From Bacteroidales bacterium (GTDB taxonomy: Bacteria > Bacteroidota > Bacteroidia > Bacteroidales > Bacteroidaceae), in NCBI GenBank assembly GCA_030531335.1, contig JAUNNV010000005.1:1-33136 (forward strand): a DNA stretch of 33,136 bases, read 5' to 3'. This document shows positions 9,077 through 18,399 of the stretch, piece by piece (positions within the stretch are counted from its first letter, which is position 1; every line of letters begins with the position of its first letter). The position numbers and the translations under genes were made by a program. The notes below the pieces were generated by a model. That model was given only the letters and a program-made list of their open reading frames with translations, was not told the DNA's origin and did not search any database.

Positions 9077-11512
9077 CTATTCGGTCTTGATGCTTTCCAT
9101 CGGATTCTTTGTGGCTACGTGCCAGCTTTGAACGACGACAGTGAGGAGAACAACCACACTGACAATGACGAATGCGAGAGGGAAGATCCACCAATAAATG
9201 GGCGTGTGCTCGGCAAAGTTCTGTAGCCATTGCTCGCTAAGGTAGTAACCTATTGGGGCAGCTATCGCGAAGGAAAGGATGAGTGGAAGTATGTAGCGGC
9301 GAGTGAAGAGTGACAACACCTCGCCCACGCTGCTGCTCATCACCTTGCGGATGGCAATTTCCTTACGACGACACTCCGTCTCGAACATTGTGAGGCAGAA
9401 GACTCCGATGAGGGTGATGAAGATGCAGATGAAGGCAAAGAGTTTGACCTGACCGATGAATCGGAACTCCTCTTCGTATGCTTTCTCCAAGCAATCATCC
9501 AGGAAGTAGAACGTGTGCTGCTTGTCGTGGCAAAGGCGGTCGAGCAGTTTTGCAGCATCCTGCTTTGCCTTGAGTTTGTCATAGCCTGCTTTTGTTCGGA
9601 TGAAGATCTTCTTGCAATCATCACTCCAGTATTCCATGCCTGTGCCATAGATGATGAAAGCCATATCCTTCTCGCTGCTGTTGACACGCATGGTTGTGAA
9701 TTGGAAGTCCTTGCACACACCCACCACGGGATAGGTGATGGGAACGTAACCAGAATTCAACTCTAATGGAGCCAATGGCTGGCCAATGTAGAAGTTCTTG
9801 TAGCGACGTGCCGACGATTCAGTTATGATGAAGGCACCATCCTTGTCCGAATCGTTGAAGTCGCGACCTTCCACCATCTCGATTCCCAATGTCTTCAGCA
9901 GATCCTTGTTGGCAGGCATCATGTAGAAGTATCGGCGAACACCTCCTTCGAAATTGCCTCCCCACTGCATGAAAACGTCGGCATCGCCAGGTTCAATCAT
10001 GCCATACGCCACACTTTCCACCCAAGGCAGTTGTTCCAGTTCCTTGTTCAGTACATCTTTCTTGCTCATGCCTTCAGTCGAAAGCATAGTGAAGAGGATT
10101 TCGTCTTTGTTGAATCCATAGTCTGACGAATAGATATGGCGTGTCTGGCACATCATCACACCGATGTAGAGAGTCAGCACGAAGCCAACCACCATCTGCA
10201 TGCATACCATCAGTGTGCGGAGCTGACGACCTTTTGGTGACAATCCGAATGCCCCCTTCAGTGCCAATGCAGGTGCAAATGATGTGGCAAACCAGGCTGG
10301 GTAAATTCCTGATAATACGCCAACCATCACTGCACCAGCAAAGGTAAGAGCACAAAGTTCCAGATGATCCGAGAAATCAACGTTTCCCGACATCAAGGAC
10401 ATGCAATCGTCATTGAGAGCGAACAACTTGACCCACAGTGTGCTAAGAAACAAGGCAACAACTGCAAGCACAACGCATTCTGCGACGAACTCCATGCGCA
10501 AACTGAGTGCAGAGGCTCCCATCACCTTGCGTGTATTGATGCTGCGGATGCGACTTGGTGCCTGAGCCAGAATAAAGTTGCTGTAGTTTAGCAATGCCAC
10601 AATGAGCACGAAGAGTGCCGACCAGAAGATGATAGTCACAAGATTTCTGTTGCCCTTGTCGTAGTGATTGACACCACTGAAATAGGTTTCATCCAAACAG
10701 TTTAGACGAATATCCATTCGCGTGTCTTTATTGAACTGCATCCAATCTGAAGAACCGTATTTCTCCATCAGCATCTTTCGCATAGATGCCTCGACTGACT
10801 CTTTGTTATCGGGAGAATCCAAACGAACATACGTAAGAAAGCTCCATGCTTGACCAGAATTAAAGCTTATGTTTTTCAATCCAAGATAGATTCCATCTTG
10901 AAGAAGGCAGTTTGCTGGCATATCTTCGGCAACACCAATGACCTCCAGTTCGCCCGGCCCAACCCCCCTCCCGACCACCTCTGAGGGGGAGGGGTTTGTG
11001 CCTACAGTTAGGCGTTTGGCTTGGGGAATGCTGAACGTCTTGCCCACAGCATCGGCAGTACCGAACAACTGTTCTGCAACACTTTTCGTTACAACAGCTT
11101 GTGTTCTTGTTGTATAGTGCGATGTGCCGTAAAGCATTTTTACGCCAAAGAAATCCAAGCCAGGATCGCCAATCTGCGTGGACATGATGTCGTCAAATTG
11201 GTTACCTCCGACATATACAGGAAATTTCCAATGCACCATATTGTCACTCACAACATCCTCAACGTGCGTCATCTCCTTTATGGTCAATTCGAATGTACGA
11301 ATCATGTAGCACGACCAATCAGCATTCGTAGTAAAACCACCCACCTCCACTCTATAGGTTCGTTCGTGGTCTTTGATGCTATGGTTGTACGTTCGATTGA
11401 ACTCCACCTGAGTAGCAAAGAGATAGAAGGCAGCCAATGCGATGCTCAACCCAAGAACGTTGAGGGCGTACGCCAATTTATGACTCCTTATTTGATATAA
11501 TAAACTTTTCAT
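9077..11512 (-). CDS. ABC transporter permease with two FtsX halves (MacB-like)
   Basis: An 811-residue inner-membrane protein made of two FtsX/MacB-type halves. TM helix near 13-33, a periplasmic MacB-PCD-like domain (about 40-285), three TM helices (about 290-415), then a second TM/periplasmic/three-TM set ending near 800. The loop ECRRKEIAIRKVMSSS is the coupling helix region of this family, and the end PMESIKTE matches that of the sister permease (PAESIKTE). With the adjacent ATPase, adaptor and TolC homologue it should form a tripartite pump that pushes a substrate from the periplasm outward. Residues about 171-190 (GTNPSPSEVVGRGVGPGELE) look like an insertion within a strand normally reading LTV-VIGVAEDMP. 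This insertion coincides with a palindromic DNA repeat. It is the last gene of the operon. Confidence 0.88.
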   Translation of the reverse strand: MKSLLYQIRSHKLAYALNVLGLSIALAAFYLFATQVEFNRTYNHSIKDHERTYRVEVGGFTTNADWSCYMIRTFELTIKEMTHVEDVVSDNMVHWKFPVYVGGNQFDDIMSTQIGDPGLDFFGVKMLYGTSHYTTRTQAVVTKSVAEQLFGTADAVGKTFSIPQAKRLTVGTNPSPSEVVGRGVGPGELEVIGVAEDMPANCLLQDGIYLGLKNISFNSGQAWSFLTYVRLDSPDNKESVEASMRKMLMEKYGSSDWMQFNKDTRMDIRLNCLDETYFSGVNHYDKGNRNLVTIIFWSALFVLIVALLNYSNFILAQAPSRIRSINTRKVMGASALSLRMEFVAECVVLAVVALFLSTLWVKLFALNDDCMSLMSGNVDFSDHLELCALTFAGAVMVGVLSGIYPAWFATSFAPALALKGAFGLSPKGRQLRTLMVCMQMVVGFVLTLYIGVMMCQTRHIYSSDYGFNKDEILFTMLSTEGMSKKDVLNKELEQLPWVESVAYGMIEPGDADVFMQWGGNFEGGVRRYFYMMPANKDLLKTLGIEMVEGRDFNDSDKDGAFIITESSARRYKNFYIGQPLAPLELNSGYVPITYPVVGVCKDFQFTTMRVNSSEKDMAFIIYGTGMEYWSDDCKKIFIRTKAGYDKLKAKQDAAKLLDRLCHDKQHTFYFLDDCLEKAYEEEFRFIGQVKLFAFICIFITLIGVFCLTMFETECRRKEIAIRKVMSSSVGEVLSLFTRRYILPLILSFAIAAPIGYYLSEQWLQNFAEHTPIYWWIFPLAFVIVSVVVLLTVVVQSWHVATKNPMESIKTE
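10943..11002 (-). repeat. In-frame palindromic repeat inside the permease gene
   Basis: About 60 bases (20 codons) interrupt the conserved strand RLTV...VIGVAEDMP. The core 10961-10996 is an inverted repeat in which AACCCCCCTCCC pairs with GGGAGGGGTT (two extra C on one arm), with a smaller inner hairpin (CCTC-A-GAGG). The high G+C and palindromic form differ from the surrounding coding DNA and resemble a REP-like element. The length is a multiple of three, so the frame is kept. Confidence 0.65.
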
Positions 11513-11516
11513 GTTG

Positions 11517-12191
11517 TCACAAAATTGTATTCTTGACTACCTCACCGTCAAAGAGATTGATGGTGCGATGGGCGTAGGTGGCATCGTGCTGGCTGTGCGT
11601 CACCATCACGATGGTGGTGCCCTCGGCATTGAGCTGTGAGAGCAGTTCCATCACCTCCAAGCCGTTCTTTGAGTCGAGGTTACCTGTTGGCTCATCGGCA
11701 AGAATAAGCTTTGGCTTACCTACAACGGCACGGGCAATAGCCACACGCTGTTGCTGACCGCCAGAGAGTTGCTGAGGATAGTGGGTGGCACGCTGGGAGA
11801 GGTTCACCTTGCGCAGAATATCCAGCACACGCTGCTTGCGCTCCGCCTTTGACACCTTGAGATACTTCAGTTGCAGGTCAACATTCTCCTCCACGGTCAG
11901 TTCGTCGATGAGGTTGAAGCTCTGGAACACGAAGCCGATGCGACCCTTGCGATACTTGGTGCGATCCTTCTCCTTGAGGTGTCCTACCTCTTCGCCTTCG
12001 AGAAAATAGTTGCCACTGTCTGGGTTGTCGAGCAATCCGAGGATGTTCAGGAGGGTTGACTTGCCACAACCCGAAGGTCCCATAATGGCCACGAACTCAC
12101 CTTCCTTTACTTCGAGGCTTACACCATTCAACGCTGTTGTCTCCACATTCTCTGTGCGGAATACCTTTGTGAGATTTTCAATCTTGATCAT
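11517..12191 (-). CDS. ABC transporter ATP-binding protein (MacB/LolD type)
   Basis: A 224-residue ATPase subunit that powers the two flanking FtsX permeases. Walker A is [11 protein letters not shown] (about residues 36-46). The Q-loop is in [17 protein letters not shown], the signature is [14 protein letters not shown], and Walker B with the catalytic Glu is LILADEPTG. The D-loop is NLDSKNG and the switch His lies in MVTHSQHDA. All elements are intact. Length and the [11 protein letters not shown] segment fit the MacB/LolD subgroup. It starts 25 bases after the upstream permease gene and ends 4 bases before the next, so all three should be co-translated. Confidence 0.95.
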
Positions 12192-12216: not shown

Positions 12217-14655
12217 TTATTCGGTTTTGATGCTTTCAGCCGGATTACTTGTTGCTACGATACGAACATAAATATCTGAGGTTATTGCAACTAATGCCAA
12301 TGTCAATACGAATGCCAGAGCGAACACCCACCATGGGAGACTGGCATGTATAATGAACTGTTGCTCCCATCGTTCTGCAGCTATGGCGGCCAGCACGCAT
12401 CCAACTATTGCAGATGGAACAGCTACCATCATAATATCCCTAATGAACATGAGGCGAATCTCCGAGAACATGGCTCCACTTATTCTTCGTATGGCAATTT
12501 CTTTGCTACGACGCTTTACTTCATCGATAGTGTATCCGATAAGACCGATAATGGCTATGAGCAACGTTACAATACCACCAATAAGAATGGTGTTGCGAAC
12601 ATTTAGAGTTTCCTTGAAGTCATCAAGACGCTGGTAGTTGAACGGCTTGACATCCATGTCTTTACCAGGAACAATCTTTTCTATCGCCTCCTTTGTCTTG
12701 CTTACAGATGTAGCAGTAAGATTGTGATACTTAATGATGATGTAAAAGAAGGCATTACATGATAGGTCGGGATCAAGATAGAATATTGCCATAGGTCTTG
12801 TTTCATAGAAAGCCTGTTCTCCCGCATAAAGACCTTGCGAAATAGATTCGAATACTCCTGCAATGACTGAGATACTCTTTCCATCGGAATGCTCAGTAAC
12901 GACAATCTCCTTACCAATAACATCATCCCATCCTGTGTTTGCTTTAAGCATTTCTTCGAACTTGGTGTCAATGAGTACTTCTTCGTCATAGGATTTATCC
13001 TCTGCGAAAGACTTTCCCTTGACAATCTTCACACCCATAACGTCAAACCAGTGAGAGTCATTCCAATAACCATCAGAGATATTAAACAATGCATCGCTGC
13101 TGCCAGGTAGTAGCACATTGTTGCCTGAATACTTGCCAAATGGATTTTGGTTGGAGAATGTGGCATCGGCGATGTCAGGCAGGGAGCGTATTTCGTCCAT
13201 GAGAGCCCTTTTCTGTGATGCGTTCAATCCCCCCAAATCCACGATGGCAGTATTGGTGCAGTCAAAACCAAGGTCAGTGGTCACAAGTTGATTGTACTGA
13301 AGGGTTATGATGCTTAGCAACACACCAAGAAATGCCACAGCAGAGAACTCCACAGCAAGGAGCACACGCTTCCATACTCTCTTGCCTGTAACATGGTTTC
13401 TGAAGACTGTTGCCACAGGAATTCTGTTGTACATTGCTGCAGGAATAACGGAATTGAGTATGAATACGAACAAAACGACAATAGCAGCAATAAACAGAGG
13501 TTTTCCTGTAAACAAATCTGATACAGACGTTCCTGAAAGAGTTTCAACCGTGCCTCTTGAAGCATAGATTAGGGTTATGGCAATGATGCATGCAACAATG
13601 GTATGCACTAGTGACTCAGCCGTCATCATGCTGTACATGTCGAGGGTATCGCTACCCATACATTTGCGTAACGCCATTTCACGGCTTCTGCTTACGGTAT
13701 TGGAAATCACGACAAGCAGATAATTTAAGACAGAGGTCAGCAAAAGTGCCAATGCAACAAAAGTGAGAACCAACATCATATTTCTTGAGTTGGAATTCTT
13801 ACTATGGAACTCTTCATACGGATGTACAGCAAAATGTATTTCCAATCCTGCATTCAGCATCTCTTCGCGAGGTATGTAACGAGCGATGAATCCGCTCATT
13901 CCCTTATTGATTTGCTCTGCTGTAGATCTGTCCGCAAGTTTTATCAATGAAGAGTAACGGTCATTGCCTACAACCCCATCCGACTTGTCAACCATGCCAT
14001 ATAAGCTGATACTTGGAAGAGAAACTACAATATCCGGTCGATAGCTTGTATTTGCAGGATAGTCCTCATATACTCCAGAAATAGTAACAGCAACCCCATT
14101 CGCATCATCTTCAAGTGTGAAGACCTTTCCCGTTATCTGTTCGGCGGCACTAATAGGATTGCTGATTCCTGATAGTTTCATTGCCATCGACGATGAGATA
14201 ACAGCATTTGCTTTCACTCCCAGAGGTTCAACAAGACTTCCTGCCAAGCACTTTCGGTCAAGTATCTTGAAGAAACAAGAATCAGCAAGTATCACACGTT
14301 CCACACTTGCCTTGCGGTCGCTGTTTTGTATGTTCACCTTAGTGTCGCTCGAAAGATATGTCCATCTCGATGCCTCTTCTATGCCAGGAAAATATGTTTT
14401 CATCAGTGGAGCAATGCCGCCAGGAGTCTTTTCATGACTCTGCTCCTGATTGTTAATCACAGCACTCTCTGTGATGTAGAAGATTCTTTCTGAATCGTCA
14501 AAGCAACTATCGTATGTCTGCTCAAAACATACTTTGGTAAGAAGAACCAAGCTCACAGCAAGGCCCAATCCTAACGAGATAATCTTGATGCCATTCCTGC
14601 GACCTTTGGCAGGGAGTGCCTTTATGGCTGCTAAAATGTAATTGATAAAGTCCAT
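12217..14655 (-). CDS. ABC transporter permease with two FtsX halves (MacB-like)
   Basis: An 812-residue inner-membrane protein with the same 8-TM, two-periplasmic-domain build as the permease at 9077-11512. TM helix near 22-42, periplasmic domain about 45-280, three TM helices about 285-420, then a second half with TM helices near 430, 690, 735 and 780. The coupling-loop motif VKRRSKEIAIRRISGA and the PAESIKTE end are present. The two permeases have the same length but low apparent identity, so they probably form a heterodimer around one pair of ATPases. It lies 14 bases after the adaptor gene. The substrate is unknown. Confidence 0.88.
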   Translation of the reverse strand: MDFINYILAAIKALPAKGRRNGIKIISLGLGLAVSLVLLTKVCFEQTYDSCFDDSERIFYITESAVINNQEQSHEKTPGGIAPLMKTYFPGIEEASRWTYLSSDTKVNIQNSDRKASVERVILADSCFFKILDRKCLAGSLVEPLGVKANAVISSSMAMKLSGISNPISAAEQITGKVFTLEDDANGVAVTISGVYEDYPANTSYRPDIVVSLPSISLYGMVDKSDGVVGNDRYSSLIKLADRSTAEQINKGMSGFIARYIPREEMLNAGLEIHFAVHPYEEFHSKNSNSRNMMLVLTFVALALLLTSVLNYLLVVISNTVSRSREMALRKCMGSDTLDMYSMMTAESLVHTIVACIIAITLIYASRGTVETLSGTSVSDLFTGKPLFIAAIVVLFVFILNSVIPAAMYNRIPVATVFRNHVTGKRVWKRVLLAVEFSAVAFLGVLLSIITLQYNQLVTTDLGFDCTNTAIVDLGGLNASQKRALMDEIRSLPDIADATFSNQNPFGKYSGNNVLLPGSSDALFNISDGYWNDSHWFDVMGVKIVKGKSFAEDKSYDEEVLIDTKFEEMLKANTGWDDVIGKEIVVTEHSDGKSISVIAGVFESISQGLYAGEQAFYETRPMAIFYLDPDLSCNAFFYIIIKYHNLTATSVSKTKEAIEKIVPGKDMDVKPFNYQRLDDFKETLNVRNTILIGGIVTLLIAIIGLIGYTIDEVKRRSKEIAIRRISGAMFSEIRLMFIRDIMMVAVPSAIVGCVLAAIAAERWEQQFIIHASLPWWVFALAFVLTLALVAITSDIYVRIVATSNPAESIKTE

Positions 14656-17621: not shown

Positions 17622-17784
17622 CACCAAAATCAGATTTAGGCCTTACTGCAATGCTTATAGGCAGAGACAAAGAAAAAATGACACTTCAGAATGCTCTTTC
17701 GGAAGAGTACTCTCAATTTATTGCCGTATATGGCAGACGTCGTGTAGGCAAGACTTTCCTTGTTCGTGAGGCGTACGATTATAA

Positions 17785-17947
17785 ATTCGCTTCGCAGATT
17801 TTCTTCCTCACCTCAGCAGACCACAAGCAAGCTTGGGCTCTGCGTTCGGTTCGTCGAAAATTCGCTTTGCAGATTTTCTTCCTCACCTCAGCAGACCACA
17901 AGCAAGCTTGGGCTCTGCGTTCGGTTCGTCGAAAATTCGCTTTGCAG
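17785..17947 (+). repeat. 75-bp tandem repeat, two full copies plus a 13-bp third start
   Basis: Units 17785-17859 and 17860-17934 differ at one base (GCTTCGCAG versus GCTTTGCAG). The first 13 bases recur at 17935-17947 before normal gene sequence resumes. Each unit has a central imperfect hairpin (CAGACCACAAGC with GCTTGGGCTCTG). The 150 bases are a multiple of three and sit between KFA and LQFAG of the ATPase, as a repeat inserted with a short flanking duplication would. Confidence 0.85.
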
Positions 17948-18108
17948 TTTGCTGGTGCTGCCAAACAGACTGCGAGGAAACAGCTGGTTCGTTTCCGTAG
18001 GGCATTGAAGGAACATGGTCAGAAAGATGCTCCCGAACTGACGAACTGGGGGGATGCTTTCAGTGAACTGAGGCGTTTTGTCGTCAATCTGCCTGAAGTC
18101 ATGGATTC

Positions 18109-18143
18109 CCATTCGACAGGCTCAGGGCAAGCCGGCTCACCAA
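18109..18143 (+). repeat. REP-like dispersed repeat inside the broken ATPase gene
   Basis: The core ATTCGACAGGCTCAGGGC (18111-18128) followed by AAGCCGGCTCACC is a sequence type I recognise as a short dispersed repeat in many bacterial genomes. It is translated as STGSGQAG on one strand and CPEPVE on the other. It lies in a part of the gene where intact relatives have only a short variable linker before the Walker B strand. Confidence 0.6.
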
Positions 18144-18399
18144 CCAAGAAGGTTGTGTTCCTTGACGAACTTCCCCGGATGGATGCGCCACGTTCTGGCT
18201 TCCTGTCTGAGATAGGGTCGTTCGGGGGAATGGGTGGGCATCCTCGCGATGAGGATATTGTCTTTGTCGCATGCGGTAGTAGTGATGACAATGGCGCTTT
18301 CACCGATATTCTATTGCCACAGAAGGGTTGGTGCATAACGAACATTGGGGTGAGGTGCGGGCGGAAATACAGTTGAACGATTCATACGAGCTTTAAGCC

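Follow-up and report, generated by a model that had tools for sequence, protein, structure and literature searches.

A palindrome in a loop of a Bacteroidales exporter permease is a probable decayed copy of a dispersed repeat family

Introduction

How did a G/C-rich palindrome come to lie, in frame, inside the gene of an ABC exporter permease? Palindromes of this kind within reading frames are best known from Rickettsia. The gene in question lies in a stretch of 33,136 nucleotides from a Bacteroidales bacterium, referred to here as the window. The window corresponds to contig C149 in a fragmentary assembly (G000; 2.3 Mb in 222 contigs, 83% complete), and its nearest named relatives are metagenome assemblies labeled Bacteroidaceae and Prevotellaceae. 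We compared the palindrome with the orthologues of its host gene, with the rest of its own genome and with related genomes, and then considered what kind of repeat it may represent.

Results

The palindrome and its host gene

The permease is encoded in an exporter cluster that also holds an ABC ATPase, a second permease, an HlyD-type protein and an OEP-type outer membrane protein. The coordinates of the palindrome, its host gene and two of these neighbors are listed in Table 1.

Table 1 Features of the palindrome and of the exporter cluster in the window.
Feature	Position	Strand	Basis
MacB/FtsX-type ABC exporter permease, 811 aa, host gene	9077..11512	-	ORF; Pfam MacB_PCD 6.7e-22, FtsX 2.2e-19
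Left arm of the imperfect palindrome	10956..10972	+	DNA fold
Right arm of the imperfect palindrome	10987..11002	+	DNA fold
Codons probably derived from the element, n=15 (residues 172-186)	10955..10999	-	DNA/protein alignment with L010 and L011; rare codons; pLDDT
Match to the CCTCCC...GGGAGG family: C-rich head CCCCCTCCCGA, then hairpin	10961..10997	+	nhmmer; pairwise match
ABC ATPase, neighbor in the exporter cluster	11517..12191	-	Pfam ABC_tran 1.3e-37
Second MacB/FtsX permease, neighbor in the exporter cluster	12217..14655	-	Pfam FtsX and MacB_PCD

An earlier note on this DNA had described a G/C-rich inverted repeat that keeps the frame of the permease and contains no stop codon. The ORF confirms this description, although the palindrome is imperfect. 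Its hairpin is mutated: in the DNA fold the two arms enclose a loop of 14 nt, compared with short loops in the other copies of the repeat family described below. The stretch that we attribute to the element comprises 45 nt with 71% GC and encodes, on the gene strand, the 15 residues TNPSPSEVVGRGVGP, flanked by LTVG and GELEV. The C-rich head of this copy is on the strand opposite the permease gene and is therefore antisense to it. The 15 codons are unusual: only 5 of 796 windows of the same length in the permease gene, and 22 of 6036 in the other genes of the window, are equally rare.

The closest orthologues, L010 (76% identity) and L011 (74%), align with the permease on both flanks and lack the DNA of the element. 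At its site they carry linkers of their own, 9-11 residues long (EDESSASQNDE and SDAPGSNGE), so the permease is longer by a net of just 4 and 6 residues, respectively. Given so small a change, either the native linker was partly lost or the linkers arose separately. In the protein alignment, the element was present in no more distant orthologue that spans the stretch. A gain of about 20 residues was seen only against distant orthologues, most of which are some 19-22 residues shorter at the site, a shortfall that includes residues of a native hairpin. The earlier estimate of about 20 added residues must thus be reduced to 15 codons, with the smaller net gain over the two closest orthologues. 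The suspicion that the segment is foreign to the protein fared better, as it is not conserved at the protein level among orthologues.

An AlphaFold2 model computed from 10 sequences was of modest quality (mean pLDDT 66.9). In this model, residues 168-185 have pLDDT values below 50, followed by a confident strand at residues 188-195 (the block 191-200 has a mean of 90). The predicted position of the element is therefore a low-confidence loop, at residues 168-185, in a variable linker of the MacB_PCD periplasmic domain. This agrees with the placement first proposed, on the loop side of the domain, but not with the accompanying claim that the repeat interrupts a conserved strand.

Copies in related genomes

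The repeat unit consists of a C-rich head of ~12 nt, followed by a CCTCCC-n-GGGAGG hairpin. Among 90 copies that could be oriented, the common layout is an A-rich start, the C-rich head and the hairpin. We counted palindromes in several genomes, using the reversed pattern as a control. With spacers of 1-30 nt, the pattern occurred at 39 sites in the genome of L010 (G301; control, 4), at 150 in that of L011 (G302; control, 9) and at 7 in the window's own genome (control, 4), where a strict pattern gave 4 sites against 0. With spacers of 1-12 nt, genome G121 had 270 sites (control, 1). Across 301 genomes of the bacterial family, a stricter pattern matched in 137, with up to 222 matches per genome and controls of at most 8 per genome; many of the 301 had none.

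A short palindrome in many dispersed copies is thus evident in the relatives and weakly so in the window's own genome (7 against 4). The proposal that the DNA is a dispersed, REP-like palindrome is borne out by the counts in the relatives. For the further copies expected in the same genome, the outcome was mixed: a search for near-identical copies returned a single match, the element itself, and just three other members of the family, all divergent, are present there, compared with dozens to hundreds in the relatives.

Some other repeats were also seen. Four loci in G302 (L090, L094, L095, and L101) have compound repeats: behind the main hairpin comes another small one, before a GGAGAGGGTC-like end; these resemble a repeat doublet. 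In the window, two tandem copies (99% alike) of a 75-bp repeat occupy positions 17783-17932, in frame and encoding 25 residues each, within an ORF (17651-18376) that has weak ATPase_2-like matches. This 75-bp repeat has 25 matches in its own genome, a number of them likewise in tandem pairs; G121 has 7 weaker matches, and G001, G301, and G302 have none. The same ORF contains TTCGACAGGCTCAGG at 18112-18126, which encodes Ser/Gly-rich residues and which we take to resemble another dispersed repeat.

Position and orientation of the copies

To locate the copies relative to genes, 100 sites were sampled: 29 from G301, 19 from G302, 50 from G121, and 2 from G000, with two nested double counts (L093 and L095). 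The G301 sites came from 23 regions, those on C21, C51, and C60 being excluded because of their long loops. The G302 sites came from 15 regions out of 150 sites, excluding the listed sites on C6 and C7, and the G121 sites were about the first 50 of the 270 listed. From G000 we used the sites on C80 and C204; neither the C90 site nor the window site is among the 100. Gene positions were taken from ORFs rather than from a gene caller. The in-gene threshold of 200 aa was set after part of the data had been seen; ORFs L069, L075, and the second ORF in L077 are among those below it, and ORF L089 was removed by hand from the in-gene count as a likely false ORF.

Forty-five of the 100 sites lay no more than 60 nt past the stop codon of an ORF of at least 150 codons, 23 lay within intact ORFs of at least 200 aa, and 32 lay elsewhere, one of them near a possible split gene according to a crude test based on ORFs rather than homology. 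Past stop codons, 35 copies had the head on the coding strand and 3 had it on the opposite one, with 7 not orientable. Inside genes, the head was antisense in 12, sense in 9, and unclear in 2. This contrast suggests that orientation after genes reflects selection and not the insertion process.

Such a distribution could mean that the family is mainly an RNA element of gene 3' ends, with a rut-like C-rich head and a protective hairpin, maintained by selection, and that its mobility has put copies into genes by accident. Both the abundance of sites just past stop codons and the bias among the 38 orientable copies there, missing from genes, are in keeping with this idea. However, the tail consensus has no T run behind the hairpin, and copy number is patchy; as many genomes have no copies, such a function cannot be essential. 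We regard this explanation as possible but doubtful.

What moves the repeat?

The obvious model for the mobility of such repeats is a trans-acting transposase that processes hairpins, and here it is not supported. If the family consisted of classical GTAG/CGTC-type REPs that a RAYT (a Y1 HUH transposase) mobilizes, its size, palindromic form, copy number, and location past stop codons would all be as expected, and Y1_Tnp genes are present in 8 of 14 palindrome-rich genomes versus 4 of 12 that lack strict matches. The tags, however, are not enriched: beside the 90 orientable copies GTAG, GTGG, and CGTC were found 3, 4, and 5 times, compared with 11, 18, and 12 times in control flanks. Y1_Tnp was matched in G301 and G001. 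Neither G000 nor G302 had a match, although these two assemblies are fragmentary and that of G000 is also incomplete. Only 1 of 13 Y1_Tnp loci examined (L138) had a palindrome. With no clear link between RAYT and the repeat, classical REP identity seems unlikely.

Chance resemblance or family member

We also asked whether the segment in the permease gene could resemble the family by chance. Fold energy was rejected as proof of a palindrome, as it was not significant: when the 48-nt strand was dinucleotide-shuffled 200 times, 17 of the shuffles folded equally well as DNA, and for a 71-nt stretch 46 of 200 did so as DNA and 111 of 200 as RNA. An nhmmer profile, trained on only 29 hand-picked copies that did not include the window copy, scored 11.8 bits at the family match of Table 1 (E = 0.44 over 61 sequences searched); the best of 60 shuffled windows reached 6.1 bits. 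The best single match to the element, a copy in L127 (G121), shares 28 of 35 nt in an ungapped alignment; none of 100 shuffled elements attained its pairwise score of 19.6 (best, 16.5). It is this family membership, from profile and pairwise match, and not the energy, that sets the segment apart from chance. A native, fast-evolving Gly/Pro/Ser linker, G/C-rich by chance and with a coincidental inverted repeat, is thus quite improbable: it accords with the unrelated Ser/Gly/Asp-rich linkers at the same place in L010 and L011, with the unexceptional fold energy and with the near absence of the family from the window's own genome, but not with an ungapped match in the same head-hairpin order, a profile score above all shuffled windows and such rare codons.

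In-frame copies in genes of relatives

If the permease palindrome is a member of the family, are there comparable copies in other genes? The 23 in-gene copies occupy 21 ORFs, of which 19 were scanned against Pfam (L152 and L154 were left out). In 14 of the 19, the palindrome lies within a matched domain: AraC-type HTH, GDSL lipase, QueA, GNAT, glycoside hydrolase family 2, SDR, the GltD oxidoreductase domain, IspG (two), SufS-type aminotransferase (two copies), HAD, exo/endonuclease/phosphatase, MFS, and Ham1/RdgB (two copies). In the other five (L083, the second ORF of L117, L120, L121, and L151), the copy is outside the matched domain. The SufS-type cysteine desulfurase and RdgB/HAM1 of G121 (L115 and L157) have two in-frame palindromes each, and IspG has one in two genomes, at different places (L102 in G302 and L155 in G121).

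Alignment of SufS with a solved cysteine desulfurase (5vpr) showed both palindromes as extra peptides, that is, as insertions. For RdgB, QueA, and IspG the alignment to solved structures breaks around the palindromes, and for GltD it has gaps at the palindrome. The SDR of a relative is nearly unchanged in length despite its palindrome, so either native residues gave way to the copy or an insertion is masked in the alignment, much as in the window gene. Two of the three frames account for most of the encoded peptides, and the window copy is in one of these frames (frame 1, codon reading). As nearly a quarter of the sampled sites lie in long ORFs, SufS, QueA, GltD, IspG, and RdgB among them, in-frame insertion is recurrent. 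Its recurrence in housekeeping genes of the relatives goes beyond what the earlier note had claimed.

Discussion

We consider it very probable that the segment in the permease gene derives, in decayed form, from a short palindromic repeat that has spread in dispersed copies through Prevotellaceae-like bacteria, and that it inserted into or replaced the linker of a loop. A copy would have entered, or taken the place of, a variable linker at a loop of the periplasmic domain, and it would have survived because it kept the frame, contained no stop codon and fell in a flexible loop; copies that broke genes would have been removed by selection. The element is probably of no benefit to the exporter.

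For the family as a whole, we tentatively propose a broader picture, which we hold with less than even confidence: a tag-less palindrome family of Prevotellaceae-like bacteria that comprises both protein-coding palindromes across core metabolism and copies past stop codons, kept in a single orientation as elements of RNA 3' ends. If this is true, a single mobile hairpin would be at once a gene-end signal and a continuing supply of new surface loops for enzymes. The in-frame palindromes of gut-type Bacteroidota offer many naturally occurring loop insertions in enzymes whose relatives have solved structures. They also present a puzzle: why are the copies after genes oriented, and those inside genes not?

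In-frame palindromes as such are already known. The Prevotella-type family appears to be new, but with low certainty: our literature search found no description of this palindrome family in Prevotella, which is weak evidence of novelty as most subscription papers lay outside the search.

The likeness to Rickettsia palindromic elements (RPEs) that had been suggested for the permease repeat is supported. RPEs are described as short palindromic repeats in frame within unrelated metabolic genes (PMC10969869, PMC3733652), and copies of the present family are likewise in frame in unrelated protein genes, the window gene and the 21 ORFs above. Unlike RPEs, which are given as ~150 bp (PMC10969869), the core here is ~35-48 nt and belongs to another phylum; this comparison is by description, not by sequence. 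The intragenic REPs in the GTAG and CGTC superfamilies (PMC3733652) are palindromes of 20-40 nt, mostly near gene 3' ends; REPs there mostly adjoin gene ends, with some lying entirely inside ORFs, RPE-4 and RPE-6 included. Our family has the same short palindromes and the same distribution, but neither the enrichment of tags nor a detectable linkage to RAYT. The REPs of subclass 2.4 are described as in frame within tnpAREP genes and abundant in Cyanobacteria and Bacteroidetes (PMC6006769). They share with the present family the frame-keeping insertion and, in part, the Bacteroidetes hosts; the gene that receives them, however, is the transposase itself, whereas the palindromes described here lie in an exporter gene and, in the relatives, in housekeeping genes.
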